Source of the DNA: an uncultured Oxalicibacterium sp.
Lineage (GTDB): Bacteria; Pseudomonadota; Gammaproteobacteria; Burkholderiales; Burkholderiaceae_D
DNA: 57,257 bases
Assembly (NCBI RefSeq): GCF_913776015.1
Contig: NZ_CAJYMD010000008.1
Span: 1-57,257, forward strand
Reading direction: 5' to 3'
This document shows positions 7,678 to 47,020 of this stretch, one piece after another; the stretch's first letter is position 1, and every line of letters starts with the position of its first letter. A program made the position numbers and the translations under genes. Below the pieces are notes generated by a model. The model saw only the letters and a list, made by a program, of their open reading frames with translations. It was not told the origin of the DNA and ran no database searches.

Positions 7678-7773
7678 TGGCGGAAGGAAGCGGGAGTCGA
7701 ACCCACCCGGCGACGCATGGCGCCACCAACCGGGTTTGAAGCCCGGCCGCCCCACCAGGGACGATTTCCTTCC
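7678..7773 (-). tRNA. selC: tRNA-Sec (anticodon UCA)
   Basis: Reading the minus strand from 7773, the RNA starts GGAAGGAA and ends UUCCUUCC-G-CCA, giving the 8-pair acceptor stem peculiar to tRNA-Sec; CCA is encoded (7678-7680). The anticodon loop is CUUCAAA with UCA at 7737-7739 (plus-strand tga). A long variable arm with a 7-pair stem (GGUGGCG/CGUCGCC) and a T stem-loop GUGGG-UUCGACU-CCCGC follow. SerRS charges it with serine, SelA converts this to Sec, and SelB delivers it to UGA. It lies 18 bases after the selB stop on the same strand, so it is probably cut from the selAB transcript. Confidence 0.96.
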
Positions 7774-7791
7774 GTATTCATTAACCTGCTT

Positions 7792-9711: not shown

Positions 9712-9717
9712 GGCGCT

Positions 9718-12182: not shown

Positions 12183-12204
12183 GCAGCGATTGTGCCCTCA
12201 AAGA

Positions 12205-12825: not shown

Positions 12826-12834
12826 GGCGATCTC

Positions 12835-13767: not shown

Positions 13768-13779
13768 GTTCGTTCTCCC

Positions 13780-16700: not shown

Positions 16701-16851
16701 GGCAGGTGTTGCGGGTTTCAGTGGCGCGCGCGAGCTTGAATTGTCGCGTTTCGGCCAGTGCTTCCGTCGGCGAAAAGCCGAGCGCGACCAGACTGGAGCC
16801 CATTAGGCCAGCCGTAGTCACACGGAAAAACTGCCTCCGGTTCATGTCCAT
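13780..16851 (-). CDS. fdoG: Formate dehydrogenase major subunit, selenocysteine-containing
   Basis: Catalytic molybdenum/tungsten bis-MGD subunit oxidising formate to CO2 in the periplasm. An in-frame TGA at 16264-16266 is Sec codon 196, the same residue number as in E. coli FdnG: the context reads FDNQARV-U-HGPTVASLAPTFGRG. The frame continues to 13780, 1023 residues in all, as expected. The N-terminus has a Tat signal (NRRQFFRVTTAG) and a [4Fe-4S] motif CPYCSVGCG. ATG 16851 is chosen because AGGAGG lies 8 bases upstream; a GTG at 16860 would overlap this site. It opens the fdoGHI-fdhE-selAB-selC operon, so it needs the machinery encoded behind it. Confidence 0.96.
16224..16259 (-). promoter_or_regulatory. 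SECIS element of fdoG
   Basis: Just after the UGA the mRNA can form an outer stem GUCCAA/UUGGAC (plus-strand 16254-16259 with 16224-16229) and an apical hairpin AGCC-AGUCU-GGCU (16237-16249). The apical loop AGUCU resembles the GGUCU loop of E. coli fdhF that SelB reads. The hairpin base is about 14 bases from the UGA, close to the usual spacing. Confidence 0.85.
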
Positions 16852-16913
16852 GGTGATCACCTCCTAGAGCGTTTCTCGCGAACGCGTGGCATTAAAACGA
16901 ACTGCTAGACCTA

Positions 16914-17468: not shown

Positions 17469-18101
17469 CTAAGATGACTGGCCGATTGCTTCTCGAATTT
17501 CGATATCGATAGGCTTGAAGGCGTGGTTATTGGAGAGTTCTGCAGAACATGCAGTCACCCCAACGACCATGTCCATTTCGGCGCGCAGATCGATGAATTG
17601 GCCGGCCTTCGATAGTGGCGGGCCAATGGTCAATTCACCATTATCCGCAATCTTCACATTCATGAAGACGTTGAAGGTTGTGGGAATACGATCGGGCTGA
17701 ATACCGAAAGGTGCCAGGTTATTGACCAGATTCATGAAGCAGCTGGGATGCGGCGCGTGATTATCGTAAATGATCTGGAATGTCTCTGGGCTGCATGGCG
17801 TCAACAGAAAATCATGTCGCCCTACCTGATCCTCGAGAATCGTGAACATCGGCGTACTACGATTGGAATAGAGAACATGGCCGGTGGTCAGGTAGATCGT
17901 ATTGGCATAATCAATACTTCGCCCCGAAGACAGCACTTCGTCAAGATCGTGTTCGTTGAAGGCCATCAAATCCGATACTTGCTCGCCCATCGGATCGATG
18001 ATTCTCAATACCTGCCCACGTTTCAGAATAAATGCCGTGCCGCTTTGCTGTTCGATATGACGACATTCCAGAGTATATGTGTGACTCATTGCCTGGCTCA
18101 T
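17469..18101 (-). CDS. DUF1989 (urea carboxylase-associated / CgdAB family) protein
   Basis: A protein of about 210 residues with the DUF1989 core: GQVLRIIDPMGEQVSDLMAF, STPMFTILEDQVGRHDFLL, CSPETF, HPSCFMNLV and NVFMNVKI. Two members of this family, once called urea carboxylase-associated proteins, are now known as the carboxyguanidine deiminase subunits CgdA and CgdB. This gene stands alone rather than as a pair and follows a YqcI/YcgG gene by about 16 bases. Several starts are possible: ATG 18140 overlaps the upstream gene and has no ribosome site, so 18101 or 18089 is preferred. Its exact substrate is unknown; a guanidino or amidino compound is inferred. Confidence 0.8.
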   Translation of the reverse strand: MSQAMSHTYTLECRHIEQQSGTAFILKRGQVLRIIDPMGEQVSDLMAFNEHDLDEVLSSGRSIDYANTIYLTTGHVLYSNRSTPMFTILEDQVGRHDFLLTPCSPETFQIIYDNHAPHPSCFMNLVNNLAPFGIQPDRIPTTFNVFMNVKIADNGELTIGPPLSKAGQFIDLRAEMDMVVGVTACSAELSNNHAFKPIDIEIREAIGQSS

Positions 18102-18117
18102 TCTTTCGATCTTCTTT

Positions 18118-18942
18118 TCAAGTTTCACTTTTCTTTGCATTCAAAGCGCTGAAAGGGCAACGCCATGTTTCTTCCACGGCACGCCCTGCATATTGACGCG
18201 CATCCGACATGCTGCCGTACTCGCTCAACGTCTCATTTATCGATCCCTGGAGTTTGCGTTCACGCGCTCGAATCACTTCCTGCATTCGCTCAAAACGTCC
18301 GTCATCGCGCAGTTTCTCAAATTGCGCGTGGAGGTTAAACACTAGGGTTGGCCAAGCAAAACGTCGTGTATAACGCGATGCGGCAGGATGAATGCCTACT
18401 ACGAAGAAACTCTGTCCGGCAAAACTGAAAGCGAAATGGGGATTCTCGGGGTCGTCACTGACTGCCGGGTCCCACGCATGCAAATTGGCATCGAGAGCAT
18501 GCAATTGCTGAAGCTGCTGCCAAAGTAATTGTTCAAATTGCTGCTCGGAATGAATGACCGGCTGCGAGAAGGTCGCTACAAAGGTCGAAAATTCGCCATC
18601 CAGACTGGGCTGTTCCTGCAGAAAATGGAAAAGATCATGTGCCAGACCTGCGGTGGATTTTTCGTCGCCTAATGCAGGGTAGTGTCCTATCCGATAGCCG
18701 CCCTGCTGGATGGCCGACTTGGCACCCACGCAGGAAAACTGCGGATTCAGCACAAGTGAACGAAAAGAATCATGAATGAAATCCAACAAGGCTTGCGGTT
18801 TCTGGTCCAGCATGTCGCCCGCTACCAGCTTCTTGTCAATAAAGGCTGCGTAGTTGCTGCATTCCATGGCATCGCTGCTGTTGAATGGATTTTCGTGTCG
18901 TAATACTTCGTTGAGCAATGGTTTCTGTGTCTGGCTTTGCAT
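18118..18942 (-). CDS. YqcI/YcgG family protein (GntA-like heme N-hydroxylase family)
   Basis: A 274-residue protein matching the YqcI/YcgG family in the segments FSCVGAKSAIQQGGYRIGHY, AHDLFHFL, NPHFAFSFAGQSFFVVGIHP and the ASRYTRRFAWPTLVFNLH stretch. No signal peptide or membrane span is seen. A characterised member, GntA of guanitoxin biosynthesis, is a heme-dependent enzyme that N-hydroxylates a guanidino group. Here it heads a two-gene unit with a DUF1989 protein, which suggests successive steps on a guanidino compound. The family call is firm; the reaction is inferred. Confidence 0.78.
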   Translation of the reverse strand: MQSQTQKPLLNEVLRHENPFNSSDAMECSNYAAFIDKKLVAGDMLDQKPQALLDFIHDSFRSLVLNPQFSCVGAKSAIQQGGYRIGHYPALGDEKSTAGLAHDLFHFLQEQPSLDGEFSTFVATFSQPVIHSEQQFEQLLWQQLQQLHALDANLHAWDPAVSDDPENPHFAFSFAGQSFFVVGIHPAASRYTRRFAWPTLVFNLHAQFEKLRDDGRFERMQEVIRARERKLQGSINETLSEYGSMSDARQYAGRAVEETWRCPFSALNAKKSET

Positions 18943-21973: not shown

Positions 21974-22651
21974 CTAGGCGGGCTTGCACACTTGTAGGGC
22001 ATCGATATCGGCACCCACAATCGCTTCCAGATGCCGACTGATCAAATCGATGGGCCAGTCCCACCATGCAATCTGCTCCAGTTGTGCCACCTGCTCCGGT
22101 GAAAAACGCGAGCGGACAATCTGTGCCGGGTTGCCGCCGACAATGGCATAGGGCGGCACATCACGCGTCACGACCGAGCCCGCTGCGATGATTGCGCCAT
22201 TGCCGATATGCACGCCCGGCATGATCAAGGATTGGTAACCGATCCAGACATCGTTGCCAATGACGGTGTTTCCCTTGAATGGCAAATCGCCTTCTTTCGG
22301 CATCACCTTTTCCCAACCCTGTCCGAATATCTGAAAGGGATAGGTCGATATGCCGGACATCTTGTGATTCGCGCCATTCATGATGAAGCGTACGCCCGTC
22401 GCAATGGCGCAGAATTTACCGATGATCAGTTTATCGCCAATGAACGGATAGTGATAGAGAACATTCCGTTCGAAATTCTCCGCGCCGTTCGGATCATCGT
22501 AATAGGTGTACTCGCCAATCTCGATGTTGGGATTGTTAATGATGTTCCTGATGTAGCTGACTTGCGGAAAGCCAGGTAAAGGATGTTTGTTGCTTAGGTC
22601 TGGGCCGTTCACAAGGGCTCCTTTGTTATCGCGAGGATTTGGTGCAGACAT
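21974..22651 (-). CDS. CatB/Vat-type hexapeptide acetyltransferase
   Basis: A 225-residue left-handed beta-helix acyltransferase: hexapeptide repeats such as IGEYTYYDD, IIGKFCAIATGVRF and VWIGYQSLIMPGVHIGNGAI. The family includes xenobiotic (chloramphenicol, streptogramin A) acetyltransferases with a catalytic His, seen here in MNGANHKMSG. Its length and C-terminal RFSPEQVAQLEQIAWWDWP match that group. Whether it gives resistance is not shown. ATG 22651 is preferred over an upstream in-frame start; it overlaps the NtrC-like dyad of the divergent atzF promoter. Confidence 0.85.
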   Translation of the reverse strand: MSAPNPRDNKGALVNGPDLSNKHPLPGFPQVSYIRNIINNPNIEIGEYTYYDDPNGAENFERNVLYHYPFIGDKLIIGKFCAIATGVRFIMNGANHKMSGISTYPFQIFGQGWEKVMPKEGDLPFKGNTVIGNDVWIGYQSLIMPGVHIGNGAIIAAGSVVTRDVPPYAIVGGNPAQIVRSRFSPEQVAQLEQIAWWDWPIDLISRHLEAIVGADIDALQVCKPA

Positions 22652-22667
22652 GCGCCACGTGGGTGCA
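22651..22667 (+). promoter_or_regulatory. NtrC-like binding site upstream of atzF
   Basis: TGCGCCACGTGGGTGCA matches the NtrC dyad TGCACY-N5-RGTGCA at 11 of 12 defined positions. A second, weaker half (TTTGGTGCA) ends at 22646. The centre is about 106 bases before the predicted sigma-54 start, the usual enhancer distance. Confidence 0.65.
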
Positions 22668-22737
22668 ATTACCTTGTCGTTTTCAAGGTTGAATAGCAAA
22701 AACGGTGATTTCCCTACGCTTGTTTCTCGATAAACGC

Positions 22738-22754
22738 ATGGCACGAGGTTTGCT
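22738..22754 (+). promoter_or_regulatory. Sigma-54 promoter of atzF-uca-gntR
   Basis: ATGGCACGAGGTTTGCT fits the RpoN consensus YTGGCACGRNNNTTGCW except for the first base, with GG and GC exactly 10 bases apart. Transcription should start near 22765, about 23 bases before the atzF ATG. Confidence 0.8.
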
Positions 22755-22762
22755 AAATCCCA

Positions 22763-22776
22763 TCTTGTACACAAGA
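22763..22776 (+). promoter_or_regulatory. GntR-type operator at the atzF start site
   Basis: TCTTGTACACAAGA has perfect 6-base arms (TCTTGT/ACAAGA), with the TTGT-N2-ACAA core typical of FCD-type GntR regulators. It covers the predicted transcription start. A 12/14-identical copy is at 29146-29159 before urtA. The likely ligand is the GntR protein at 28247-28978. Confidence 0.65.
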
Positions 22777-22787
22777 AGGGATACCAC

Positions 22788-24596
22788 ATGCTCGGCTGGA
22801 CTATCAAGGAATGGCAACAAGCCTATCGTTCGGGCCAATCGCCCGCCACATTACTGCGCAAACTGCTCGCTACGCTACCAGCAAATGACGTCGCCTGGAT
22901 CACGATCATGGATGAGGCCGGGCTCGAGGCGCAACTTGCGCATCTGGCGAAACGGCTGATCGAGGTCGATGGCGATCTGGCACAACTGCCCTTGTATGGC
23001 GTGCCATATGCCGCGAAAGACAATATCGATGTAGCGGGCATACCAACGACTGCGGCCTGCCCTGCCTTTGCCTATGTGCCGCAAAGCAATGCCACCATCG
23101 TGAAGCGGCTTGCCGATGCCGGTGCCATCGTCATTGGCAAAAGCAATCTCGATCAATTTGCCACCGGTCTGGTCGGTGTGCGCTCGCCCTACGGCATTCC
23201 CACCAACACCTTCAATCCCGAATATGTATCAGGTGGATCGAGCTCCGGTTCGGCGTCGCTGGTGGCGCGCGGCATCGTGCCATTTTCTCTCGGCACCGAT
23301 ACGGCGGGCTCCGGCCGTGTGCCGGCTGGCCTCAACAATATTGTTGGACTCAAGCCGACACGCGGCGCATTCAGTAATACCGGCGTGGTCCCGGCCTGTC
23401 GTACGCTCGATTGCGTCTCGGTCTTTGCCAGTACGTGTGCCGATGCCGTCACGGTCTACGACGTCGCCGCTGCACTGGATAAAGCCGATGGTCTGTCGCG
23501 CGCGATGCCTGCGGCGGCACGTCTTGATGCACTGCCCGCAACACCGCGTTTTGGCATCCCTGCCAAACCGGAATTTTATGGCGATGCCCAGGCGGAGAAA
23601 GCGTTTGCCTATGCCATCCGTCAGCTTGAAGCGCAAGGCGCTAGCTGTGAGCCGATCGACTTTTCACTCTTCGATGACGTCACCAAGCTTTTGTACGATG
23701 GTGCCTGGGTCGCCGAACGCTACGCTGCCATCGAAGAATTTGCAGCAACACAGGAAGACGCGATTCACCCGGTCGTGCGCGGCATCATCTTCAAAGCAAA
23801 GCAGTTCTCGGCTGCCGATGCCTTCAAGGGCACGTACCGTCTGGCCGACCTGAAGCGCAAGTCCGATGCACTGCTCGCGCAATTCGACGCGCTGGTGGTA
23901 CCGACTGCACCCACCCATTACAAGATTGCCGAGTTGCTGGCGGACCCCGTGCGCCTCAACAGCAACATGGGCAAGTACACCAACTTCGTCAACCTGCTGG
24001 ATTGGAGCGCCTTTGCCGTACCGGCAAGCCTGCGTGACGATGGTCTGCCATTCGGCATCACCTTTATCGCCGATGCCTGGCGCGAACGCGCGCTGGCTGC
24101 ATTTGCAGCGCAATGGCATGTCAGCACAGGACTCACGCGCGGCGCCACCGGTCTGCCCTTGGCCGCCGATACAGATCTGCCACCTTGTGCCGATCCAGGC
24201 GCCATGATTCGCGTCGCCGTCGTAGGCGCGCATCTGCGCGGCATGCTGCTCAATCATGAACTCACGACGCGCAATGCCCGTTTCGTCAGCAGCACCACAA
24301 CAACGCCTGAATATCGTCTGTTTGCGCTGGCCAACACAACACCGCCTAAACCGGGTCTGGTACGCGTGGCTGAAGGCGGCGCGGCCATTCGCATCGAACT
24401 GTGGGATGTGCCTGGAGAAGCGTTCGGCTCCTTCGTCGCCGGTGTGCCTGCACCGCTGGGTATCGGCACGCTGACCACCGCTGATGGCAGCAGTGTCAAG
24501 GGTTTCATCTGCGAAGCGATCGGCCTCGATGGCGCGCAGGACATTACCGCATTCGGCGGCTGGGCCGCTTATCTGGCAAGCAAGAAAACAGCCTAA
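22788..24596 (+). CDS. atzF: Allophanate hydrolase
   Basis: Hydrolyses allophanate to ammonium and CO2, the second step of ATP-dependent urea breakdown. The 602-residue protein has an amidase-signature domain with the Ser-cis-Ser-Lys elements AAKDNIDVAG (lysine) and GGSSSGSASLVA, and a C-terminal allophanate hydrolase domain (from about residue 470, including VAVVGAHLRGMLLNHELT) that handles decarboxylation. It precedes urea carboxylase by 39 bases in the same operon and is under a sigma-54 promoter. Confidence 0.94.
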   Translation: MLGWTIKEWQQAYRSGQSPATLLRKLLATLPANDVAWITIMDEAGLEAQLAHLAKRLIEVDGDLAQLPLYGVPYAAKDNIDVAGIPTTAACPAFAYVPQSNATIVKRLADAGAIVIGKSNLDQFATGLVGVRSPYGIPTNTFNPEYVSGGSSSGSASLVARGIVPFSLGTDTAGSGRVPAGLNNIVGLKPTRGAFSNTGVVPACRTLDCVSVFASTCADAVTVYDVAAALDKADGLSRAMPAAARLDALPATPRFGIPAKPEFYGDAQAEKAFAYAIRQLEAQGASCEPIDFSLFDDVTKLLYDGAWVAERYAAIEEFAATQEDAIHPVVRGIIFKAKQFSAADAFKGTYRLADLKRKSDALLAQFDALVVPTAPTHYKIAELLADPVRLNSNMGKYTNFVNLLDWSAFAVPASLRDDGLPFGITFIADAWRERALAAFAAQWHVSTGLTRGATGLPLAADTDLPPCADPGAMIRVAVVGAHLRGMLLNHELTTRNARFVSSTTTTPEYRLFALANTTPPKPGLVRVAEGGAAIRIELWDVPGEAFGSFVAGVPAPLGIGTLTTADGSSVKGFICEAIGLDGAQDITAFGGWAAYLASKKTA

Positions 24597-24635
24597 CCAC
24601 GCCTGTCGCAACCGATTACCTTCGAGGATTCACGC

Positions 24636-27600
24636 ATGTTCAACACTGTTCTGATTGCCAACCGTGGCGAAATCGCGTGCCGTATCGCACGCACGCTGAA
24701 GAAAATGAACATCCGTTCGGTCGCCGTCTATTCGGATGCCGACCGCAACAGCCTGCATGTGACAGCTGCCGATGTGGCCGTCTCCCTGGGTGGACAGACT
24801 GCTGCCGAAAGCTATCTGCGCGGCGAACTCATCATCGAAGCTGCCAAGAAGACGGGCGCGCAAGCCATCATTCCGGGCTACGGTTTTCTTTCCGAGAATG
24901 CCGATTTCGCGGCACGCTGCGAAGCGGAAGGCATTGTCTTCGTTGGTCCGACGCCCAAGCAGATGGAACAGTTCGGCCTCAAGCATGCCGCGCGCGAACT
25001 GGCCGAACAGGCTGGTGTACCGCTGGTACCGGGCTCCGGTCTGTTGCCCGATCTGGCGTCGGCGAAGGCAAAGGCTGACGAGATCGGTTATCCGGTCATG
25101 CTCAAGAGCACCGCAGGTGGTGGCGGTATCGGCCTCACGCGCTGCAACAGCGAAGCCGAACTGGTTGCCGCATTCGAATCTGTACAGCGCCTCGGTCAAT
25201 CGTTCTTCGCCAATGCCGGCGTATTCGTCGAGCGCTTTGTCGACAAGGCACGTCATATCGAAGTACAGATTTTTGGCGATGGCCGCGGCAATGTGATTGC
25301 ACTAGGCGAGCGCGACTGTTCACTGCAGCGCCGCAATCAAAAGGTAGTGGAAGAAACACCGGCTCCGCATCTGTCCGCAGAATTGCGTCACGCTCTGCTG
25401 GCATCGGCAGAAAGCCTTGGCCGTTCGGTCGGCTATCGCTCGGCAGGCACGGTCGAATACATTTTCGATGCAGAAAAACATGCGTTTTACTTCCTCGAAG
25501 TGAACACACGTTTGCAGGTGGAACACGCGATCACCGAAAGCGTGACCGGCATCGACCTGGTCGAATGGATGATCCAGACTGCCGCCGGCAATCCACCATT
25601 TCTCGACCGCCCGATTCGCGCACAAGGTGCATCGATCGAGGTGCGCGTCTATGCCGAAAACCCGCTGCGCAATTTCGCGCCCAGCCCCGGCACGCTGACG
25701 GAGGTATTTTTCCCCGACAATATTCGTGTCGATGGCTGGGTCGAAACCGGCACCGAAGTGTCGGCGCATTACGATCCGATGATCGCCAAGCTGATCGTCA
25801 GCGGCAAGGATCGCGCCGATGCGATTGCCAACATGTCGCAAGCGCTGGCAGAAACACGGCTTTCTGGCATTTCCACCAACCTCGATTACCTGCGCCAGGT
25901 CGTCGCCAGCGAAGGCTTTCAATCGGGTGATGTCTCGACGCGCTATCTCGACAGCTTCGATTACCGTCCGCAAGTCCTTGAAATCATCGAGGCCGGCACC
26001 TACACGACGGTGCAGGACTATCCGGGCCGCGTCGGCTACTGGGATATCGGTGTGCCACCCTCCGGCCCGATGGATGACTGGGCATTCCGTCTGGCCAACC
26101 GCATCGTCGGCAACCAGCCTCACGCCGCCGGTATCGAAACCACGGTGCTCGGTCCGACCTTGCGTTTTCATTGCGACAGCGTGATTGCGCTGACCGGCGC
26201 GCCAACCGATGCCACGCTTGACGGTCAACCGATTGCCTTCTGGGTACCGATTAGTGTGAAAGCAGGTCAGGTCCTGCGCGTTGGCAAGGCCAACAGTGGT
26301 TGCCGCAGTTATCTGGCGATTCGCAACGGGCTCGATCTGCCCGTCTATCTCGGCAGCCGCGCGACGTTCGCACTCGGCCAGTTCGGCGGCCATGCCGGTC
26401 GTACATTGCGGCCTGGCGATGTATTGCCGGTCGCCAATCCTGAATTGCCTGCCACAGCCGATCTGGCACCGGCGCATGCACCAGTCGCCCTGCCCTCTTC
26501 ACTAATTCCGTCTTATGGCAAAACCTGGGAAATTGGCGTGCTGTATGGCCCGCATGGCGCACCCGATTTTTTCACCAGCGAATCCATCGAAACCTTTTTC
26601 GCCAGCGAGTGGGAAGTCCATTACAACTCGAATCGTCTCGGCATTCGACTGAACGGACCGAAACCTTCGTGGACACGTTCGGACGGTGGCGAAGCCGGCC
26701 TGCACCCATCGAATGTGCACGATTGCGAATATGCGATCGGCAGCATCAACTTCACCGGCGACATGCCGGTGATTCTGACGCGTGACGGCCCCAGCCTTGG
26801 CGGTTTTGTCTGCGCAGCCACCATCGTCAAGGGCGAGCTGTGGAAAGTCGGCCAGGTCAAGCCGGGCGACAAGATCCGCTTTGTGGAAATGTCGTTCGAA
26901 GAAGCGCTGGCGCTTGAGCAACGTCAGGATGCATTCCTCTCTGCATGGGATGCCAGCACGCTCACGCCGCCGGTCTTTGCCGCACAACGTGGCACGCCCA
27001 TCCTGTTCGAACGTGCGGCACAGGGCGAAGCACCCAAGACCGTGTTCCGTCAGGCTGGCGACAAATACATTCTCATCGAATACGGCGAAAACGTGCTCGA
27101 TCTGAATCTGCGCTTCCGTATTCACGCACTGATGGAAGCGCTCAAGCATGACGACCATGCCGGTGTGCTCGAGCTTTCGCCCGGCGTGCGTTCGCTGCAA
27201 GTACGTTACGACAGTCGCATCATTTCGCAAGCGACTTTGGTCAAGGTACTGTCCGACACGGATGCCGGCCTGAAAGACATCGCTACCATGCGCGTACCCA
27301 GCCGCGTGGTCTATCTGCCGATGGCCTATAACGATTCCGCCACGCTGGATGCCGTTGCACGTTATCGCCAATCTGTGCGCGATACGGCACCGTGGTTGCC
27401 AAGCAATACCGAATTCATCCGCCGCATCAACGGCCTGGATTCCGAAGAAGTCGTGCGTGACACCATCTACGAAACCAGCTACATGGTGCTGGGCCTTGGC
27501 GACGTGTATCTGGGTGCGCCCTGCGCGGTGCCGGTCGATCCGCGCCATCGCATGCTGACCTCCAAATACAATCCGGCCCGTACCTACACGGCTGAAGGAA

Positions 27601-28238
27601 CGGTCGGTATCGGCGGCGTCTACATGTGCATCTATGGCATGGATTCGCCGGGCGGCTACCAATTGGTCGGCCGCACGCTTCCGATCTGGAACAAGTTCAT
27701 GAAGAACAGCATGTTCGTCGATGGCAAGCCGTGGTTGCTGCGCTTCTTCGACCAGGTACGTTTCTATCCGGTGTCGGAAACCGAACTTGATCAATTGCGC
27801 AACGATTTCCGTGAAGGCCGTTGCGGTGTGCAGATCGAGGAAGAGATGTTCGATCTGGGCAAGTACAACGCCTTCCTCGAACGCATAGAACCGGAAATGG
27901 AAGGATTCCGTACACGCCAGAAAGCGGCTTTCGACCTCGAAGTGGCACGCTGGGCCAGCGAAGCCGATCAGGCGACCGCTGCTGCCGATGCGCAGCGCAA
28001 TCCGCTGGATGCTGCCAATCTGACCGGCTCTGTCGTCTCTGCCGATATCACCGGCAATGTCTGGAAGATCGTGGCCGAGGCTGGCGCAACCGTGAAAGCT
28101 GGCGATCCGTTGCTGATTCTGGAAGCGATGAAGATGGAATTCCATATCGCCGCGCCATGCGATGGCGTGGTCGGCAACTTCCACTGCAAGCCCGGCATGA
28201 TGATCAATGCCGGTGATCCGCTGGTTTCCATCGAATAG
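24636..28238 (+). CDS. uca: Urea carboxylase
   Basis: Biotin enzyme that carboxylates urea to allophanate with ATP and bicarbonate. The 1200 residues hold, in order, biotin carboxylase (1-450; GGGGIGLT, EVNTRLQVEH), a KipA/AHS2 domain (about 455-780; DYPGRVGYWDIG), a KipI/AHS1 domain (about 800-1040) and a biotinyl domain with EAMKMEF near 1165. Close relatives prefer guanidine, but those operons also carry cgdAB and a guanidine riboswitch, neither of which is here; the Urt urea transporter next door favours urea. The GntR gene follows by 8 bases. Confidence 0.93.
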   Translation: MFNTVLIANRGEIACRIARTLKKMNIRSVAVYSDADRNSLHVTAADVAVSLGGQTAAESYLRGELIIEAAKKTGAQAIIPGYGFLSENADFAARCEAEGIVFVGPTPKQMEQFGLKHAARELAEQAGVPLVPGSGLLPDLASAKAKADEIGYPVMLKSTAGGGGIGLTRCNSEAELVAAFESVQRLGQSFFANAGVFVERFVDKARHIEVQIFGDGRGNVIALGERDCSLQRRNQKVVEETPAPHLSAELRHALLASAESLGRSVGYRSAGTVEYIFDAEKHAFYFLEVNTRLQVEHAITESVTGIDLVEWMIQTAAGNPPFLDRPIRAQGASIEVRVYAENPLRNFAPSPGTLTEVFFPDNIRVDGWVETGTEVSAHYDPMIAKLIVSGKDRADAIANMSQALAETRLSGISTNLDYLRQVVASEGFQSGDVSTRYLDSFDYRPQVLEIIEAGTYTTVQDYPGRVGYWDIGVPPSGPMDDWAFRLANRIVGNQPHAAGIETTVLGPTLRFHCDSVIALTGAPTDATLDGQPIAFWVPISVKAGQVLRVGKANSGCRSYLAIRNGLDLPVYLGSRATFALGQFGGHAGRTLRPGDVLPVANPELPATADLAPAHAPVALPSSLIPSYGKTWEIGVLYGPHGAPDFFTSESIETFFASEWEVHYNSNRLGIRLNGPKPSWTRSDGGEAGLHPSNVHDCEYAIGSINFTGDMPVILTRDGPSLGGFVCAATIVKGELWKVGQVKPGDKIRFVEMSFEEALALEQRQDAFLSAWDASTLTPPVFAAQRGTPILFERAAQGEAPKTVFRQAGDKYILIEYGENVLDLNLRFRIHALMEALKHDDHAGVLELSPGVRSLQVRYDSRIISQATLVKVLSDTDAGLKDIATMRVPSRVVYLPMAYNDSATLDAVARYRQSVRDTAPWLPSNTEFIRRINGLDSEEVVRDTIYETSYMVLGLGDVYLGAPCAVPVDPRHRMLTSKYNPARTYTAEGTVGIGGVYMCIYGMDSPGGYQLVGRTLPIWNKFMKNSMFVDGKPWLLRFFDQVRFYPVSETELDQLRNDFREGRCGVQIEEEMFDLGKYNAFLERIEPEMEGFRTRQKAAFDLEVARWASEADQATAAADAQRNPLDAANLTGSVVSADITGNVWKIVAEAGATVKAGDPLLILEAMKMEFHIAAPCDGVVGNFHCKPGMMINAGDPLVSIE

Positions 28239-28246
28239 GCCACAGC

Positions 28247-28978
28247 ATGCAAGCGCAACCACTCAGCGAAATCTTGCCGACCACCGGCAAGAACGCCAAC
28301 AACCTGGCAATGCAAATCTATCGTCAGATCAAGGCCGACATTTTCGACTTTCGCCTGCTGCCCGGCGACAAGTTCAGCGAAGGCGATATCGCCACGCGCA
28401 TGCAAGTCAGCCGCACGCCGGTAAGGCAGGCACTGTTCTGGCTTCAGCGCGAAGGCTATGTCGATGTGCATTTCCGCAGTGGCTGGCAGGTGCGCAGTTT
28501 CGACTTCAAGTACTTCGAAGACTTGTACGAGATTCGCATCATGATGGAAACATCGGCAGTAGGCAGTCTGGTCGAACGCGGCGAGACCGAGCGTTTGGCA
28601 ACGCTGCGCGAGATCTGGTGCATTCCCGCCAGCGAACAGTTGGCCGAGCCGAGCAAGGTCGCGGCACTCGACGAAGCCTTTCATGCACGTCTGGTGGCGG
28701 CCGTCGGCAACAACGAAATGGCGCGCATGCATCAGGATGTGACAGAGCGCATTCGCATCATCCGTCGGCTCGACTTTACCAAGGCACCGCGCATCGATGC
28801 CACGTATAGCGAACATGCCGACATTCTTGATCGCATCTTCAGCGGCGATGCAGCCGGTGCACAGCAAATGCTGCGCGATCACATTGCCGAAAGCCGCGAT
28901 GAAGTCAAACGCATCACGCTGTTCATGCTGCACAACGCTCGCGCGCAGTACGCAGGCGAAGAATTGGAAAGCTCCTGA
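28247..28978 (+). CDS. GntR/FCD transcription regulator of urea genes
   Basis: A 243-residue regulator with an N-terminal winged helix (about 20-85; GDKFSEGDIATRMQVSRTPV) and a C-terminal FCD ligand domain (about 90-225) with the metal-type histidines in FHARLV and a later H in DHIAESRDE. As the third gene of the atzF-uca unit it should control that unit and urtABCDE through the shared TCTTGT-N2-ACAAGA sites. The effector is unknown; urea, allophanate or a nitrogen metabolite is likely. Confidence 0.88.
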   Translation: MQAQPLSEILPTTGKNANNLAMQIYRQIKADIFDFRLLPGDKFSEGDIATRMQVSRTPVRQALFWLQREGYVDVHFRSGWQVRSFDFKYFEDLYEIRIMMETSAVGSLVERGETERLATLREIWCIPASEQLAEPSKVAALDEAFHARLVAAVGNNEMARMHQDVTERIRIIRRLDFTKAPRIDATYSEHADILDRIFSGDAAGAQQMLRDHIAESRDEVKRITLFMLHNARAQYAGEELESS

Positions 28979-28988
28979 TTTGTGCAAG

Positions 28989-29005
28989 CGCACCACGTCG
29001 GCGCA
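28989..29005 (+). promoter_or_regulatory. NtrC-like binding site upstream of urtA
   Basis: CGCACCACGTCGGCGCA matches TGCACY-N5-RGTGCA at 10 of 12 positions and shares the CACCACGT-like core with the atzF site. Its centre is about 148 bases before the predicted start. Confidence 0.5.
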
Positions 29006-29117
29006 AGGGTGACGATGCGGTAGCGATGTAGCACTTCAACCGAGGTCCAGTATCGATATCAACTGCCATTTTTCGATGGCAACGGTGGTGTTCGCCCTTG
29101 TTATTGCATTGTCGTCG

Positions 29118-29134
29118 TTGGTCTGGAAATTGCT
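29118..29134 (+). promoter_or_regulatory. Sigma-54 promoter of urtABCDE
   Basis: TTGGTCTGGAAATTGCT matches the RpoN consensus at all defined positions except the CAC after GG; GG and GC are 10 bases apart. The start would fall near 29145, leaving a leader of about 127 bases before the urtA ATG. Confidence 0.7.
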
Positions 29135-29145
29135 ATTAGCGTATG

Positions 29146-29159
29146 TCTTGTATCCAAGA
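29146..29159 (+). promoter_or_regulatory. GntR-type operator at the urtA start site
   Basis: TCTTGTATCCAAGA has arms TCTTG/CAAGA and is 12/14 identical to the site at the atzF promoter, placed at the same point relative to the sigma-54 element (within 3 bases). Confidence 0.6.
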
Positions 29160-29271
29160 TGAAATACAACATGGACGTGACCGGTAACGGCAATGTCCAT
29201 GGCATGAAAAGTCTGCTGTTCCCTTTTGCTGTCATTTGCGTTTTTGTTCAATCACATAGGAGCACATCAAC

Positions 29272-30525
29272 ATGTCACGTCGTCTGATTTTGAAAGCAAC
29301 GGCACTCGGCGCCTTCGCACTGGCTGCCTCTTCCTGGCTGCCGCCTGCTTTCGCCGCCGATACCATCAAGGTCGGCATTCTGCATTCGCTGTCGGGCACG
29401 ATGGCAATCTCCGAAACGTCACTCAAGGACGTGGCGCTGATGACCATCGATGAAATCAATGCCAAGGGCGGCGTACTGGGCAAAAAACTGGAGCCTGTCG
29501 TCGTCGATCCCGCATCAAACTGGCCGCTGTTTGCCGAAAAGGCACGCCAACTGATTTCGCAAGACAAGGTGTCGGTCGTGTTCGGCTGCTGGACTTCGGT
29601 CTCGCGCAAATCCGTCCTGCCGGTCTTCAAGGAATTGAACAGCCTGCTGTTCTACCCCGTGCAATATGAAGGCGAGGAACTTGAGAAGAATGTGTTCTAC
29701 ACGGGTGCGGCACCCAACCAGCAAGCCATTCCTGCGGTTGAATACCTGATGTCGAAAGAAGGTGGCGAAGCCAAGCGCTTCGTGCTGCTGGGTACCGACT
29801 ATGTGTATCCGCGTACCACCAATAAGATCCTGCGCGCCTTCCTGCACAGCAAGGGCGTGAAGGATTCGGATATCGACGAGGTCTACACGCCGTTCGGCCA
29901 CTCCGACTATCAAACCATTGTCGCCAACATCAAGAAGTTTTCCGCTGGCGGCAAGACGGCCGTGATCTCGACCATCAATGGCGACTCCAACGTGCCGTTC
30001 TACAAGGAACTGGGCAATGCCGGCATCAAGGCAACCGATGTACCAGTCGTCGCTTTCTCTGTGGGTGAAGAAGAGCTGCGCGGCGTCGATACCAAACCGT
30101 TGGTGGGGCATCTGGCTGCATGGAACTACTTCCAGTCCGTGAAGAATCCGGTCAACACTGAATTCATCAAGAAATGGAAAGACTATGCCAAGGCCAAGAA
30201 ACTGCCGAATGCCAGCACGGTCGTGACCAACGATCCGATGGAAGCTACCTACGTCGGCATCCACATGTGGGCGCAGGCAGTCGAGAAAGCCAAGTCCACC
30301 GATACCGACAAGGTCATCGCAGCGATGGCAGGCCAGACCTTCAAGGCACCATCGGGCTACACGCTGAAGATGGATGAAACCAACCACCACCTGCACAAGC
30401 CTGTGATGATCGGCGAAATCCGCGCCAACGGTCAGTTCAATGTGGTCTACAAGACCAAGGAACCGATTCGCGCCCAACCTTGGAGCCCATACATCAAGGG
30501 CAACGAGAGCAAGCAGAAGATGTAA
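29272..30525 (+). CDS. urtA: Urea ABC transporter, binding protein
   Basis: Periplasmic urea-binding protein of the branched-chain amino acid receptor type, 417 residues. An N-terminal twin-arginine-like or Sec signal (SRRLILKATALGAFALAASS, cleavage near AFA) precedes DTIKVGILHSLSGTMAISE. The NSLLFYPVQYEGEE and NSTE-type hinge segments and the C-terminal QPWSPYIKGNESKQKM region are typical of UrtA. It heads the urtABCDE operon under a sigma-54 promoter, as expected for nitrogen scavenging. Confidence 0.94.
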   Translation: MSRRLILKATALGAFALAASSWLPPAFAADTIKVGILHSLSGTMAISETSLKDVALMTIDEINAKGGVLGKKLEPVVVDPASNWPLFAEKARQLISQDKVSVVFGCWTSVSRKSVLPVFKELNSLLFYPVQYEGEELEKNVFYTGAAPNQQAIPAVEYLMSKEGGEAKRFVLLGTDYVYPRTTNKILRAFLHSKGVKDSDIDEVYTPFGHSDYQTIVANIKKFSAGGKTAVISTINGDSNVPFYKELGNAGIKATDVPVVAFSVGEEELRGVDTKPLVGHLAAWNYFQSVKNPVNTEFIKKWKDYAKAKKLPNASTVVTNDPMEATYVGIHMWAQAVEKAKSTDTDKVIAAMAGQTFKAPSGYTLKMDETNHHLHKPVMIGEIRANGQFNVVYKTKEPIRAQPWSPYIKGNESKQKM

Positions 30526-30678
30526 TCGTCTTCCCGGCAAGACGGCTGCATCTGCGGGTGCAGCCGTTCCGGCGGGACATTGCATCGATTGCTGGAACAT
30601 CGATTGCAGAGTTCACACCGGAAAAAACGTGAAGTTTCCCTCGAACTGGCGCATCGCGCGCCATTCAAGATCACATCC

Positions 30679-32295
30679 ATGACACGCATTTCTCGTTTCA
30701 CTTTTCGCGCATGGCTGCTCGCCTTTCTGTGGCTGGTAATGGCTGGTGCGCATGCTGCGATCGATCGTGCCGTACTGGCACCGCTGGGCAACGACGATGC
30801 CGATGCCCGCATCGAAGCGGTCGGCCATATCGCTGCATTGGCCACGCCGGATGCACGCCGCGTTCTCGACGCACTCAACAATGAAACCCTGTACGTGACG
30901 CCGGCTGGCGACGTACTGGTCGTCGATGACGACAAGGCATGGAATCCTGTAACCGATGCCACCACGGCCGTACCGGACGATGCCGAAGATATCAGCGTCA
31001 ACAATCGCCTGCGTAGCGTGCTGCAAGGTGCGCTGTCCGGCATGCGCCTGTTTTCCGAAGATCGCAGCGAACGTCTGGCCGCCGCGCGCGCCATGACGCG
31101 CAATGCCGATCCAGCGCAATTGCCGTTGATCGAAAAGGCATTGGAAAAGGAAAAAGATGCCGACGTCATCGCGCAACTCGAACAGGTACGCGCCATTGCC
31201 AATCTGAATGCCGAGGATGCGGCCAAACGCAAGGCCGCGCTGATCACCTTGCGCAACACGACCGATGCCAGCCTGATGGGCACGTTCCGCGACATGGCCG
31301 AGAAAAAGCCGGATGGCAGCTATCAGGAACCGGATGCAGAAGTGCGCGCAGAAGCCGCCAAGACGGTCGCCGCCTTGCAGAACCATCTGCGCATGACCGA
31401 CATCGCCGGCAAGGTTTTCTACGGCCTGTCGCTCGGCAGCGTGTTGCTGCTGGCAGCTCTCGGCCTGGCCATCACCTTCGGCCTGATGGGCATCATCAAC
31501 ATGGCGCATGGCGAAATGCTGATGATCGGTGCCTACACCACTTATCTGTGTCAGTTGTTCTTCCGCGCCTACTTTCCCGAGGCGATCGACGCTTACCTTT
31601 TGCTGGCGCTGCCCGCCGCCTTCATCGTCACCGCGGCAGTCGGTATCGTGATCGAGCGGCTCGTGATTCGCTGGCTCTATGGCCGCCCGCTGGAAACGTT
31701 GTTGTGCACCTGGGGTATCAGCCTGATGCTGATGCAGGGCGTGCGCACCCTCTTCGGCGCGCAAAATGTCGAGGTCGCCAATCCTTCATGGATGTCCGGT
31801 GGCATCACGGTGATGGGTTCACTGGCACTGTCGTGGAACCGCATCATCATCATCGTCTTCTCGCTGCTAGTGGTGCTGGCAGTCTGGCTGATCCTGAACA
31901 AGACAAGGCTGGGCCTGTTCCTGCGCGCCGTCACACAAAACCGTCGTATGGCCGATTGCGTCGGCGTATCGACCGGACGCATCGACATGATGACCTTCGG
32001 ACTCGGTTGCGGCATTGCGGGTCTTGGCGGCGTGGCACTGTCGCAACTGGGCAATGTCGGCCCCGACCTCGGGCAGGCCTACATCGTCGACTCCTTCATG
32101 GTGGTGGTATTGGGCGGCGTCGGCCAGTTGGCCGGTACCGTGATCGCCGCATTCGGACTGGGTGAAATCACCAAGTTCCTTGAGCCGGTTGCCGGTGCCG
32201 TGCTGGCGAAGATCGCCATCCTGGTCGTCATCATCGTCTTCATCCAAAAACGTCCGCAAGGCCTGTTTGCGCTGAAAGGCAGGAGTGTGGAATGA
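30679..32295 (+). CDS. urtB: Urea ABC transporter permease UrtB
   Basis: Membrane subunit of the urea importer, 538 residues from ATG 30679. That start gives a signal peptide (RISRFTFRAWLLAFLWLVMA, cut near AHA); an upstream in-frame start adds a non-coding-looking tail. Residues about 30-240 form a soluble helical domain with repeat character, seen in the long proteobacterial UrtB proteins, followed by a LivH-type permease with about eight spans (MGIINMAHGEMLMIGAYTTY, GLFLRAVTQNRRMADCVGV). It overlaps urtC by the sequence ATGA. Confidence 0.92.
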   Translation: MTRISRFTFRAWLLAFLWLVMAGAHAAIDRAVLAPLGNDDADARIEAVGHIAALATPDARRVLDALNNETLYVTPAGDVLVVDDDKAWNPVTDATTAVPDDAEDISVNNRLRSVLQGALSGMRLFSEDRSERLAAARAMTRNADPAQLPLIEKALEKEKDADVIAQLEQVRAIANLNAEDAAKRKAALITLRNTTDASLMGTFRDMAEKKPDGSYQEPDAEVRAEAAKTVAALQNHLRMTDIAGKVFYGLSLGSVLLLAALGLAITFGLMGIINMAHGEMLMIGAYTTYLCQLFFRAYFPEAIDAYLLLALPAAFIVTAAVGIVIERLVIRWLYGRPLETLLCTWGISLMLMQGVRTLFGAQNVEVANPSWMSGGITVMGSLALSWNRIIIIVFSLLVVLAVWLILNKTRLGLFLRAVTQNRRMADCVGVSTGRIDMMTFGLGCGIAGLGGVALSQLGNVGPDLGQAYIVDSFMVVVLGGVGQLAGTVIAAFGLGEITKFLEPVAGAVLAKIAILVVIIVFIQKRPQGLFALKGRSVE

Positions 32296-33401
32296 GCAAC
32301 GCCGTGATCAAAACCTCTCTCTTCACTCGACCCGCCTGGATCGGCATTGTGCTGTGCGCTATCGTTCTGGCTGCCCTGCCCTTGCTGAACCTACTGTTTG
32401 CTGCCGACCACGCTCTGCATGTATCGAGCTACACGGTCGGCCTGATCGGCAAGTTCATGTGCTACGCAATGGCCGCACTGGCACTCGATCTGGTATGGGG
32501 CTATACCGGCATCCTGTCGCTCGGGCACGGCGTGTTCTTCGCGCTGGGCGGCTACATGCACGGCATGTACCTGATGCGCGCCATCGGTAAGGATGGCGTC
32601 TATCAAAGCGATCTGCCAGACTTCATGGTGTTTCTGAACTGGAGCGAGTACCCGTGGTACTGGTGGATGACGAATCACTTCTGGTTTGCCATGCTGCTGG
32701 TGGTGCTGGTGCCGGGCTTGCTGGCATTCGTATTCGGCTACTTCGCATTCCGTTCGCGCATCAAGGGCGTGTACTTCTCGATCATCACGCAGGCGATGAC
32801 GTTTGCCTTCATGCTGCTGTTCTTCCGCAATGACACGGGCTTTGGAGGCAACAATGGCTTTACCGACTTCAAGCGGATTCTCGGCATCACGATCACGGCG
32901 CCTGAAACCAAGGCCGCGCTGTATCTCGTCACCCTTGCCTTCCTGCTCGGTGCATTGTTGCTGTGCCGCTGGATCGTCACTTCCAAGCTCGGCCGCGTGC
33001 TGCAAGGCGTGCGCGATTCCGAATCGCGTCTGATGTTCATCGGCTACAACCCGCTGTGGTTCAAGCTATTCATCTGGGTGCTGTCGGCGATTTTGTGCGG
33101 CATTGCCGGTGCGTTGTATGTCCCGCAAGTCGGCATCATCAATCCTTCCGAGATGTCGCCGGCCAACTCGATCGAAATGGTGATATGGGCAGCAGTCGGC
33201 GGACGCGGTTCGCTGATCGGCCCGATCATCGGTGCCTTCAGCGTCAACGGTCTCAAGAGCTGGTTCACGGCGGCCTTTCCCGATTTGTGGCTATATGCGC
33301 TGGGGCTGATCTTCATTCTCGTCACGCTATTCATGCCACAAGGGATTCTGGGCGTTGTACAGAAACTGAAGAAACGTACAAAAGACGGAGAAGCCGCATG
33401 A
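32292..33401 (+). CDS. urtC: Urea ABC transporter permease UrtC
   Basis: Second, LivM-type, permease: 369 residues with about ten membrane spans and the conserved GYTGILSLGHGVFFALGGY, FRNDTGFGGNNGFTDF and GVRDSESRLMFIGYN segments that mark UrtC. Start ATGA overlaps the urtB stop and its stop overlaps the urtD start, so all three are co-translated. Confidence 0.94.
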   Translation: MSNAVIKTSLFTRPAWIGIVLCAIVLAALPLLNLLFAADHALHVSSYTVGLIGKFMCYAMAALALDLVWGYTGILSLGHGVFFALGGYMHGMYLMRAIGKDGVYQSDLPDFMVFLNWSEYPWYWWMTNHFWFAMLLVVLVPGLLAFVFGYFAFRSRIKGVYFSIITQAMTFAFMLLFFRNDTGFGGNNGFTDFKRILGITITAPETKAALYLVTLAFLLGALLLCRWIVTSKLGRVLQGVRDSESRLMFIGYNPLWFKLFIWVLSAILCGIAGALYVPQVGIINPSEMSPANSIEMVIWAAVGGRGSLIGPIIGAFSVNGLKSWFTAAFPDLWLYALGLIFILVTLFMPQGILGVVQKLKKRTKDGEAA

Positions 33402-34273
33402 TGGTCAAACAGCCCGGCGAACAAGCAACCAACTTCGACCCATACATCGACGAGTACGTCGATGAATACGTTGGCGACCAGGGTGAAACTAATTACGGTC
33501 GCGTCAAGCCCGAAGGGCTGGATACCGCGCACGGTGCGATTCTGTATCTGGAAGATGTGGTCGTGAATTTCGATGGCTTCAAGGCCATCAACAAACTCAA
33601 TCTCGATATCTCGGTCGGCGAACTGCGCTGCATCATCGGCCCCAACGGGGCCGGCAAGACGACGATGATGGATGTCATTACGGGCAAGACGCGCCCTACT
33701 TCCGGCTCTGTCTATTTCGGCCAGACCATCGATCTGACACGCATGACCGAATACCAGATTGCGCATGCCGGCATCGGCCGCAAATTCCAGCGACCGACCG
33801 TTTTTGAACATCACACTGTGTTCGAGAACCTTGAGCTGGCGATGAAGATGGACAAGCGCGTCAAGACGACGTTGTTTGCGCGTCTCAACAGTGAACAGCG
33901 CGACCGCATTGCGGACACGCTGAAGCTGATTCGCCTAGACGGTCAGGAAAAACGACTGGCCGGCCTGCTTTCGCACGGCCAGAAGCAATGGCTGGAAATC
34001 GGCATGCTGCTGATGCAGGAACCTCTGCTGCTGTTGCTGGATGAACCGGTCGCCGGCATGTCCGATGCCGAAACGGTGCGCACTGCCGAACTGCTCAACG
34101 AACTGCGCGGCAAGCATTCGATCATGGTGGTCGAACACGACATGGGCTTCGTCGAAGAAATCGCACAAGGTGGCAAGGTGACCGTGCTGCACGAAGGCTC
34201 GGTGCTGGCCGAAGGCAATATGCAACAGGTGCAATCGAACGATCGCGTGATCGAAGTCTATCTGGGACGCTAG
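33398..34273 (+). CDS. urtD: Urea ABC transporter ATPase UrtD
   Basis: LivG-type ATPase, 291 residues. Walker A GPNGAGKTT, signature LSHGQKQWLEIG and Walker B LLLLLDEPVAGM are present. ATG 33398 overlaps the urtC TGA (ATGA) and is chosen over a longer reading frame that runs inside urtC. An acidic N-terminal extension of about 45 residues (DPYIDEYVDEYVGDQGETN) precedes the ATPase core; it is longer than in many UrtD proteins. Confidence 0.93.
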   Translation: MMVKQPGEQATNFDPYIDEYVDEYVGDQGETNYGRVKPEGLDTAHGAILYLEDVVVNFDGFKAINKLNLDISVGELRCIIGPNGAGKTTMMDVITGKTRPTSGSVYFGQTIDLTRMTEYQIAHAGIGRKFQRPTVFEHHTVFENLELAMKMDKRVKTTLFARLNSEQRDRIADTLKLIRLDGQEKRLAGLLSHGQKQWLEIGMLLMQEPLLLLLDEPVAGMSDAETVRTAELLNELRGKHSIMVVEHDMGFVEEIAQGGKVTVLHEGSVLAEGNMQQVQSNDRVIEVYLGR

Positions 34274-34286
34274 GAGTACCGCATAC

Positions 34287-34985
34287 ATGCTGCAAGTCGA
34301 TGAACTGAATCAATACTACGGCGCGGCGCATACCTTGCGTGGCGTGTCGCTCAATGTACAAAAAGGCCGCTGCATGGCGCTGCTGGGCCGCAATGGCGTT
34401 GGCAAAACCACCTTGCTCAAATGCCTGATGGGCGTGCTGCCGGTTGCGAAAGGCAACGTTACCTTCGAAGGTCAGGACATTACACGTCTGAAACCACATC
34501 AGCGCGCCGCGCTCGGCATTGCCTATGTGCCGCAAGGTCGGGAAATCTTCGCGCGCCTGACCGTGGAAGAAAATCTGCTGATGGGCATGGCCACCAAATC
34601 GGGACGTGCTGCCGCCTCGATTCGTGGCGAGGTCTATGAACTCTTCCCCGTTCTGAAGGAAATGCTGCATCGGCGCGGTGGCGACCTATCTGGCGGTCAA
34701 CAACAGCAACTGGCGATTGCCCGCGCTTTGCTGGCCGATCCCAAGCTGATCATTCTGGATGAACCGACCGAAGGGATCCAGCCATCGATCATCAAGGATA
34801 TCGGGCGCGTGATTCGCCTGCTGCGCGAACGCGGCGATATCGGCATCCTGCTGTGCGAACAGTATTTCGATTTCGCTCACGATCTGGCCGATGACTTCAT
34901 CGTCATGTCGCGCGGTGAAGTGGTTGCCAGCGGCACGCAGGCGCAAATGAATGACGAGAGCGTCAAACGACATCTGGCTGTGTGA
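34287..34985 (+). CDS. urtE: Urea ABC transporter ATPase UrtE
   Basis: LivF-type ATPase, 232 residues: Walker A GRNGVGKTT, signature LSGGQQQQLAIAR, Walker B LIILDEPTEGIQPS. It completes the five-gene high-affinity urea importer and lies 13 bases after urtD. A bidirectional terminator follows at 35010-35050. Confidence 0.94.
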   Translation: MLQVDELNQYYGAAHTLRGVSLNVQKGRCMALLGRNGVGKTTLLKCLMGVLPVAKGNVTFEGQDITRLKPHQRAALGIAYVPQGREIFARLTVEENLLMGMATKSGRAAASIRGEVYELFPVLKEMLHRRGGDLSGGQQQQLAIARALLADPKLIILDEPTEGIQPSIIKDIGRVIRLLRERGDIGILLCEQYFDFAHDLADDFIVMSRGEVVASGTQAQMNDESVKRHLAV

Positions 34986-38431: not shown

Positions 38432-41584
<3,153 letters not shown>

Positions 41585-42832: not shown

Positions 42833-42847
42833 GATCGTGTCCTGTTC

Positions 42848-44248: not shown

Positions 44249-44345
44249 CGAATTCTCCTGGAACGAACATGGAAATTCGACGGAAGAGCAGTCCTATCGG
44301 CTTGTCGCCGTGAGTAGAGGAAAGATCAGGACCGGTCCCGCCGCG

Positions 44346-44708: not shown

Positions 44709-44736
44709 GATAACGCAGAAATCATTGAATACGTGC

Positions 44737-46974: not shown

Positions 46975-47020
46975 GATTTCTCCTTGAACAAACTTGGTCT
47001 TGCTTGACCGGACACTTGTT

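Follow-up and report, generated by a model that had tools for sequence, protein, structure and literature searches.

Two urea promoters of one design, with NtrC-like dyads, sigma-54 elements and a putative three-half-site GntR operator, in an uncultured Oxalicibacterium sp. and its relatives

In Pseudomonas, the GntR-family pathway repressor HutC acts at a site overlapping the sigma-54 site of hutU, in a nitrogen-yielding catabolic operon (PMC12977541, in the part of the text available). The hutU promoter is also activated by NtrC, and the ligand of HutC is urocanate. The effector domain of HutC is of the UTRA type. Another NtrC/sigma-54 promoter repressed by its pathway regulator belongs to the AtzR/atzDEF system of Pseudomonas sp. 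ADP; AtzR and NtrC together were the subject of no paper among the matches listed in the literature search. The present analysis deals with the promoters of two groups of urea genes, atzF-uca-gntR (allophanate hydrolase, urea carboxylase and a GntR-type regulator) and urtABCDE (urea transporter), in a 57,257-nt stretch of DNA from an uncultured Oxalicibacterium sp. (contig NZ_CAJYMD010000008.1). This whole stretch is referred to as the window, and window positions are numbered on it.

Control of urea genes by sigma-54 and NtrC is already known (PMC5491218, PMC8443478, PMC5343134, in the portions available). In Burkholderia cenocepacia, an ntrC mutation lowers urt, urease and a gene annotated as urea carboxylase (PMC5491218), and the NtrC regulon of the RegPrecise reconstruction takes in atzF for Rhizobiales and urt/ure for several taxa (PMC5343134). 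The gene order atzF-uca, gntR, urtABCDE appears in a 2026 genome paper on Ectopseudomonas guguanensis, the available text of which does not address control (PMC13296017).

An earlier note on this DNA, made from its letters, had proposed that the promoters before atzF and urtA carry the same three elements, an NtrC dyad, a sigma-54 element and a GntR palindrome, in the same order and at similar spacing. All six elements are present where they had been placed (Table 1), and the two palindromes, TCTTGTACACAAGA and TCTTGTATCCAAGA, are indeed identical at 12 of 14 positions. Comparison between genomes, in which synteny, operator and sigma-54 element are co-conserved, supports the idea that NtrC/sigma-54 and a local GntR acting on an operator at the start control the genes jointly. 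We consider it likely, with a probability of about 80 %, that the local FCD-type GntR regulator holds off atzF-uca-gntR and urtABCDE, each of them a transcription unit dependent on NtrC and sigma-54.

The sigma-54 consensus is GG-N10-GC in a TGGCAC...TTGC-like context. Both sites in the window have this form and are kept in relatives; the score of the atzF site was reached by a fraction of 0.001 of 2000 single-base shuffles. With the C of each GC counted as -12, the predicted starts are about 22765 and 29145. The distance from the -12 to the operator is 11 nt at atzF and 14 nt at urtA. The elements stand in the order that had been claimed, but the NtrC dyad lies 89 bp from the sigma-54 GG at atzF and 131 bp from it at urtA; only the operator spacing is shared. 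The proposed overlap of the palindrome with the predicted start is seen at atzF, whereas at urtA the palindrome begins just after the start. No sigma-70-like site was found within 22600-29300, and the organism's own genome has one RpoN match (Sigma54_DBD) and one NtrC above the cut-off.

Table 1. Elements and genes of the urea locus in the window
Feature	Position	Strand	Remarks
NtrC-like dyad before atzF, TGCGCCACGTGGGTGCA	22651..22667	+	19/20 weighted; 0/300 shuffles reach this
Second, weaker NtrC-like dyad before atzF, CGCGAGGATTTGGTGCA	22630..22646	+	21 bp before the first; pair score 34, 0/300 single-base shuffles
Predicted sigma-54 element of atzF, ATGGCACGAGGTTTGCT	22738..22754	+	12/13; predicted start about 22765
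Putative GntR operator at atzF, TCTTGTACACAAGA	22763..22776	+	Exact consensus; about -2 to +12
Putative third operator half-site at atzF, ATACCA	22781..22786	+	4 bases after the palindrome, immediately before the start codon
Second, weaker NtrC-like dyad before urtA, AGCTCCTGATTTGTGCA	28970..28986	+	Overlaps the gntR stop; pair score 34, spacing 19, 0/300 shuffles
NtrC-like dyad before urtA, CGCACCACGTCGGCGCA	28989..29005	+	18/20 weighted, p=0.003
Predicted sigma-54 element of urtA, TTGGTCTGGAAATTGCT	29118..29134	+	10/13, weak alone; predicted start about 29145
Putative GntR operator at urtA, TCTTGTATCCAAGA	29146..29159	+	1 mismatch; about +2 to +15
Putative third operator half-site at urtA, ATACAA	29164..29169	+	4 bases past the palindrome; urtA start codon ~100 nt farther on
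atzF, allophanate hydrolase	22788..24596	+	TIGR02713 809 bits, cut-off 511
uca, biotin-dependent urea carboxylase, Asn705	24636..28238	+	TIGR02712 1927 bits; alignment to the K. lactis enzyme
gntR, GntR/FCD regulator	28247..28978	+	PF00392 and PF07729 above cut-off
urtA, urea ABC transporter binding protein	29272..30525	+	TIGR03407 591 bits, cut-off 493
urtBCDE, remaining urea transporter genes	30580..34985	+	UrtB TIGR03409; Pfam domains for permease, ATPase

A search of genome contigs with the GntR protein returned 30 loci. In L001-L029, which come from Oxalobacteraceae, Burkholderiaceae, Pigmentiphaga, Delftia and three Gammaproteobacteria (Pokkaliibacter, Oceanobacter, Serratia), most have atzF with gntR, most have uca between them, and urtA follows in 13, some contigs ending before urtA could follow. 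Loci with only a second atzF-like gene (L020), no intact atzF (L022-L024) or a weak match (L030) were left out of the promoter counts. In all 26 atzF promoters, the window included, the operator has at most one mismatch and the sigma-54 element scores 9/13 or more; in Oceanobacter (L028), the -12 reads TGGT instead of TTGC. The operator starts 8-17 nt past the -12 G (17 nt for the nearer of two copies in L013) and exactly 25 bp upstream of the atzF start codon in 23 of the 26. Among the 12 urtA promoters first examined, ten have an operator with at most one mismatch, 14-17 nt past the G of GG-N10-GC (nine found by script; in L002 the sigma-54 element was placed by eye), and GG-N10-GC is kept at the sigma-54 position in relatives. 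L027 and L029, missing from this count because the UrtA start was unaligned, were read later, giving 10 of 14 urtA promoters over all loci with the window included, or 11 if L027 is counted.

The urtA operator also tracks the gntR ortholog. Among 80 related genomes, five have an ortholog (at least 77 % identity), all in the same genus. A strict operator pattern occurs in all five of these and in 7 of the 75 without. Of the latter seven matches, five are perfect TCTTGTATACAAGA palindromes adjoining other GntR-like genes (named by eye), which marks this palindrome type as a GntR operator, and a sixth (G032) is inside a gene. The seventh (G005, another family; L134 near 10079) is TCTTGTATCCAAGA right before atzF, with a sigma-54 element, CTGGCGTGATGTTTGCT, in front, an ATCCA half-site and a 51 % gntR homolog 5.5 kb off. 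When 30 urtA promoters were compared, from 31 genomes with urtA (G003 gave no locus), an operator with at most one mismatch was present in 3/4 with gntR and 0/26 without (Fisher p=0.001, which is generous because the genomes are related). A sigma-54-like match of at least 10/13 lies within ~130 bp of the start in 22 of these 26; TGGCATGCATTCTGCT occurs in eight of the 26, in one of these (G276) farther up, the match is weak or distant at G268, G270 and G289, and G286 has a two-mismatch palindrome. Presence of the operator thus follows that of the regulator, whereas the sigma-54 element tends to be retained.

Three features of the promoters were missing from the earlier note: a third operator half-site, the pairing of the NtrC dyads and second operator copies. 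A half-site of the form [AG]T[ACT]C[ACG]A, a pattern fixed only after inspecting the aligned promoters, stands exactly 4 bases past the palindrome in 24 of 26 atzF and 10 of 10 urtA operators, against a background of 14/1430 (atzF) and 2/550 (urtA) positions in the upstream 60 bp. It is absent, in both directions, from the five TCTTGTATACAAGA operators of other GntR-like genes, so this three-half-site shape separates the urea operators from the five other GntR-type operators compared. As the half-site is far from the urtA start codon, and in L026 stays with the operator where the start codon lies elsewhere, it is not a signal for translation. In sequence it is a repeat, 12 bp on, of the right-hand half of the palindrome, and the operator may therefore hold more than one dimer.

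The palindromes would sit at the 5′ end of both transcripts, and that of atzF abuts the ribosome-binding site, so they could instead be RNA hairpins that control message stability or translation. This is the least probable of the alternatives weighed here. In 18 of 26 atzF sites the palindrome opens with A or G, neither of which pairs with the A at its end, although the core is conserved; the third half-site adds nothing to a hairpin; second copies over the -12 element would stay untranscribed; and the 26 urtA promoters of ortholog-less genomes have no operator. The only known RNA elements in the window (Rfam, gathering scores) are tRNA-Sec and SECIS, both elsewhere.

These second copies are clearest in L006 and L013, with two and one mismatches, 21 bp or two turns upstream of the main operator and over the -12 element, as would be expected for a competitor of polymerase. 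In L016, L017 and L027, copies with three mismatches lie 20-21 bp upstream. The -12 element at duplicated operators reads CTTGA or CTTGT, not TTGC; since both motifs contain CTTG, chance may partly account for the weaker copies. Some FCD regulators activate, and GntR might accordingly be an activator or a dual regulator at the atzF and urtA promoters, but this is improbable, because the operators lie within about -2 to +15, with copies over the -12 in some relatives, and such places suit the blocking of a sigma-54 promoter already equipped with NtrC sites. Judged from these positions, GntR is probably a repressor of both promoters, and hence of itself. More tentatively, and with rather less likelihood than not, the FCD-type GntR on its three-half-site operator, unlike relatives with a plain palindrome, may act downstream of the sigma-54 closed complex, leaving polymerase bound and poised so that urea releases a loaded promoter; the duplication over the -12 in some Burkholderiales would then turn it into a direct competitor.

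The dyad TGCGCCACGTGGGTGCA has one to two mismatches to TGCACCN4TGGTGCA, and the consensus used is close to the form printed as GCACCA-N3-TGGTGC in the available part of PMC12977541. Upstream dyads, as in members of the NtrC regulon, are found by this consensus at both promoters. Since the dyads in the window are paired, the single dyad of the earlier note is probably half of a pair. Across the loci, single dyads at p<=0.05 are found in 16/26 atzF and 7/12 urtA promoters, whereas pairs 19-22 bp apart at shuffle p<=0.05 are found in 22/26 and 9/12, the window among them. A pair score of at least 30 is reached in 10/26 atzF and 7/12 urtA promoters, compared with 1.5 % of random stretches from the same loci. 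Within the window, NtrC-like matches are not enriched (24 vs 29.4 expected).

A distant gntR homolog (E<=1e-40) is present in 39 of 250 genomes of the order. In 29 loci of this kind (L042-L070), an operator with at most one mismatch was found only at L042, in ~3.7 kb searched; in 14 of the 28 others, an atzF-like or uca gene adjoins whose promoter lies beyond the stretch, and those 14 were refetched wider. Seven of them (L137, L138, L139, L140, L142, L145 and L149) then showed a sigma-54 element (at least 10) with an operator-like site of up to three mismatches no more than 25 nt behind it; in the first five, the pair stands directly before atzF. By a rough estimate, chance could give a few such pairs in 190 kb, and L145 and L149 are therefore not counted. 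The site before atzF is an exact operator with ATACAA in L138 (G099), has one mismatch with ATTCCA in L142 (G138) and three with ATTCCA in L139 (G237); in L137 (two mismatches) and L140 (three) there is no half-site. The other seven refetched loci lack the pair, with an operator-like site but no sigma-54 element in L143 and L150. In the ortholog-less genus-mates G250, G251, G254 and G261, a 50-53 % gntR paralog comes immediately after atzF, which is preceded by a sigma-54 element at -53, ACTTGTATACAT at -25 and then ATTCAA at the place of the half-site; G002 has a sigma-54 element and ACTTGTATACATGT.

With distant gntR homologs (52-57 %), the design thus recurs before atzF and not before urtA. 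The atzF design looks old and repeatedly reused, while its extension to urtA, and with it joint control of uptake and breakdown, seems to be a feature of the present gntR clade.

Some further arrangements were seen at these loci. No uca lies beside atzF and the 50-53 % gntR paralog at L133 5503-8048 (G250) and in L121-L124. In L145 near 3107 (G049), a sigma-54 element, CTGGCATCAAGCTTGCA, and then TCTTGAATACAAGA stand before a gene ~5 kb ahead of a 53 % gntR homolog. Downstream of gntR in Pandoraea communis (L020) lie a second allophanate hydrolase and ABC transporter genes, with ttggcacgctctttgct and TCTTGTATCCAAGT in front of them. The Delftia loci L022-L024 have an operator and gntR near 9749-9790, with no atzF or uca match and an atzF-like start past the operator; judged by eye, they are the remnant of a deleted locus.

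A number of observations weigh against the proposed joint control. The urtA sigma-54 score is reached by 11 % of shuffles and 93 times in the window, counting both strands, so this match alone proves nothing. The matrix for NtrC was built on a consensus sequence; its pairs are not significant in 4/26 atzF and 3/12 urtA promoters, several others are marginal (p 0.02-0.05), and the atzF pairs of L001 and L019 are off the usual place, near -291 and -316. At urtA, the operator is degenerate in L003 (three mismatches), where the sigma-54 element, gntR and the atzF operator are present, and likewise in G256; L026 has neither operator nor sigma-54 element, and L029 has no operator. In L027, the urtA operator, CCTTGTATTCAAGG, has three mismatches and lies ~57 bp before urtA; both outer arms are altered symmetrically with the palindrome preserved, and it stands after CTGGCTTGGAAGTTGCT and is followed by ATCCAA at the place of the half-site. 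Near the distant gntR in L138, L139 and L142, urtA has no operator, and two of these three urtA promoters have a sigma-54 element of 12-13/13. The ligand proposed below is a guess.

Counts of TCTTGTNNACAAGA give modest evidence within the window. Five places in the window are within two mismatches (1.49 expected; reached in 1/100 shuffles), and the atzF site is the sole exact match in the organism's own genome. That genome has seven places with at most one mismatch against eight for a reversed control pattern, so the bare genome count is no evidence for an operator; three of the five other one-mismatch places were inspected and all are within open frames. Motif counts in the window or own genome, being near chance, were rejected as proof. 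The sigma-54/NtrC control alone might then be real and the palindromes due to chance or belong to another GntR, particularly as the CTTGTATACAAG type is common to other GntR-like genes. This is very unlikely, given that a fixed distance to the sigma-54 element is conserved and that the operator co-occurs with the linked gntR; conservation across relatives strongly lifts the three-element design above chance.

The two promoters may therefore be read as follows. Under nitrogen limitation, the paired NtrC dyads, ~100-175 bp before each predicted start, would recruit phosphorylated NtrC, which would open the sigma-54 RNA polymerase at the GG-N10-GC element. GntR would bind the three-half-site operator WCTTGTAYMCAAGA-N4-ATACMA, beginning at about the start site, and block melting or escape, until its FCD domain is filled by a metabolite of the pathway (a small carboxylate such as allophanate being the most likely) and GntR leaves. 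The promoters would thus need low nitrogen and substrate together, and gntR, being the third gene of the first unit, would limit itself. We infer the transcription units, the binding of GntR, its action as a repressor and not an activator, and the ligand from the arrangement and conservation of these elements.

The regulator has a winged helix (PF00392) and an FCD domain (PF07729) over the cut-offs, has no UTRA match and scores 20 bits against a cut-off of 220 with TIGR02018, the HutC-type model, and no curated NCBIfam model names it. D142, H146 and H190 are invariant in 30 aligned sequences, the window included, and H212 is kept in at least 90 %. By sequence, the closest solved structures are 3fms and 3sxy (E 1e-19), which we take to be TM0439-type FCD GntR regulators, and the Asp and three His of 3fms align with these four residues. 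As this set matches the metal site of FCD domains, its conservation points to a small carboxylate as ligand. By analogy with the yeast urea pathway, allophanate, which urea carboxylase makes, is the best guess.

The gene order in the window is atzF, uca, gntR, urtA, urtB, a further permease and an ATPase, with permease Pfam domains at 32292-33401 and ATPase domains at 34287-34985; the gene between them (~33.4-34.3 kb) has its urt name by position alone. In the carboxylase, Asn705 aligns with an Asn in the solved K. lactis urea enzyme, while two carboxylases of L131 and L132, adjoining DUF1989-type genes as judged by eye, have Asp at this column. DUF1989 is a family linked to carboxyguanidine deiminase. 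Asp marks guanidine carboxylases and Asn urea carboxylases according to the available text of a review (PMC12186494), and we take the column of Asn705 to be the specificity position meant there. A guanidine carboxylase reading of uca was accordingly set aside, the neighbours being atzF and gntR with no DUF1989 pair adjoining. A urease alpha subunit was found in 0/5 genomes of the genus with gntR (the own genome and four others), 2/8 genus-mates searched without it and 34/80 genomes overall.

Elsewhere in the window, a DUF1989 gene (17469-18140) adjoins a YqcI/YcgG gene (together 17469-18942, - strand), 4.6 kb from atzF and with no carboxylase beside. Divergent from atzF is a hexapeptide-repeat transferase (about 21974-22615, - strand), which by eye resembles xenobiotic acetyltransferases; were its start the GTG near 22615, it would be separated from atzF by the NtrC dyads. 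A selenocysteine cluster (7682-16860, - strand) comprises tRNA-Sec (7682-7773), selB, selA and a formate dehydrogenase-like molybdopterin gene with a SECIS_3 element (16211-16269). The frame of this molybdopterin gene breaks at ~16.2 kb, as it should if a TGA there is read as selenocysteine. An RND efflux set (38432-47055, - strand), with an AcrB-type pump, a HlyD-type fusion protein and an outer membrane protein, adjoins a P-type ATPase and perhaps serves metal export.

A function is thereby proposed for a regulator conserved beside urea carboxylase genes, and bacteria of this clade are predicted to govern both uptake and breakdown of urea by one two-signal switch. As a natural promoter set, in which the putative repressor sits at varied distances from the sigma-54 element, these loci bear on how a repressor stops a bound, waiting polymerase; the point of greatest interest is whether GntR keeps polymerase off or retains it in a bound closed complex.

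In comparison with known systems, the TM0439-type FCD regulators are the best solved relatives by protein sequence, and AtzR differs as a LysR-type regulator of the cyanuric acid pathway. The RegPrecise NtrC regulon, in the part of PMC5343134 available, includes no GntR regulator of urea carboxylase and does not name atzF or urt for Betaproteobacteria. No study of this system was among the matches listed when the literature was searched for GntR regulators of urea carboxylase, GntR repressors at sigma-54 promoters and the operator letters, most subscription journals being outside the coverage. HutC is a known precedent, and its consensus TGTA-N2-TACA resembles the core of the window operator (PMC12977541, in the part available). 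Unlike HutC, the present system has an FCD domain, belongs to the urea pathway, carries a third half-site and has two promoters of one design, for breakdown and uptake. NtrC/sigma-54 control of urea genes and a GntR repressor over a sigma-54 site are thus known, the latter from HutC, and what is new is the three-half-site shape of the operator relative to the five operators compared.

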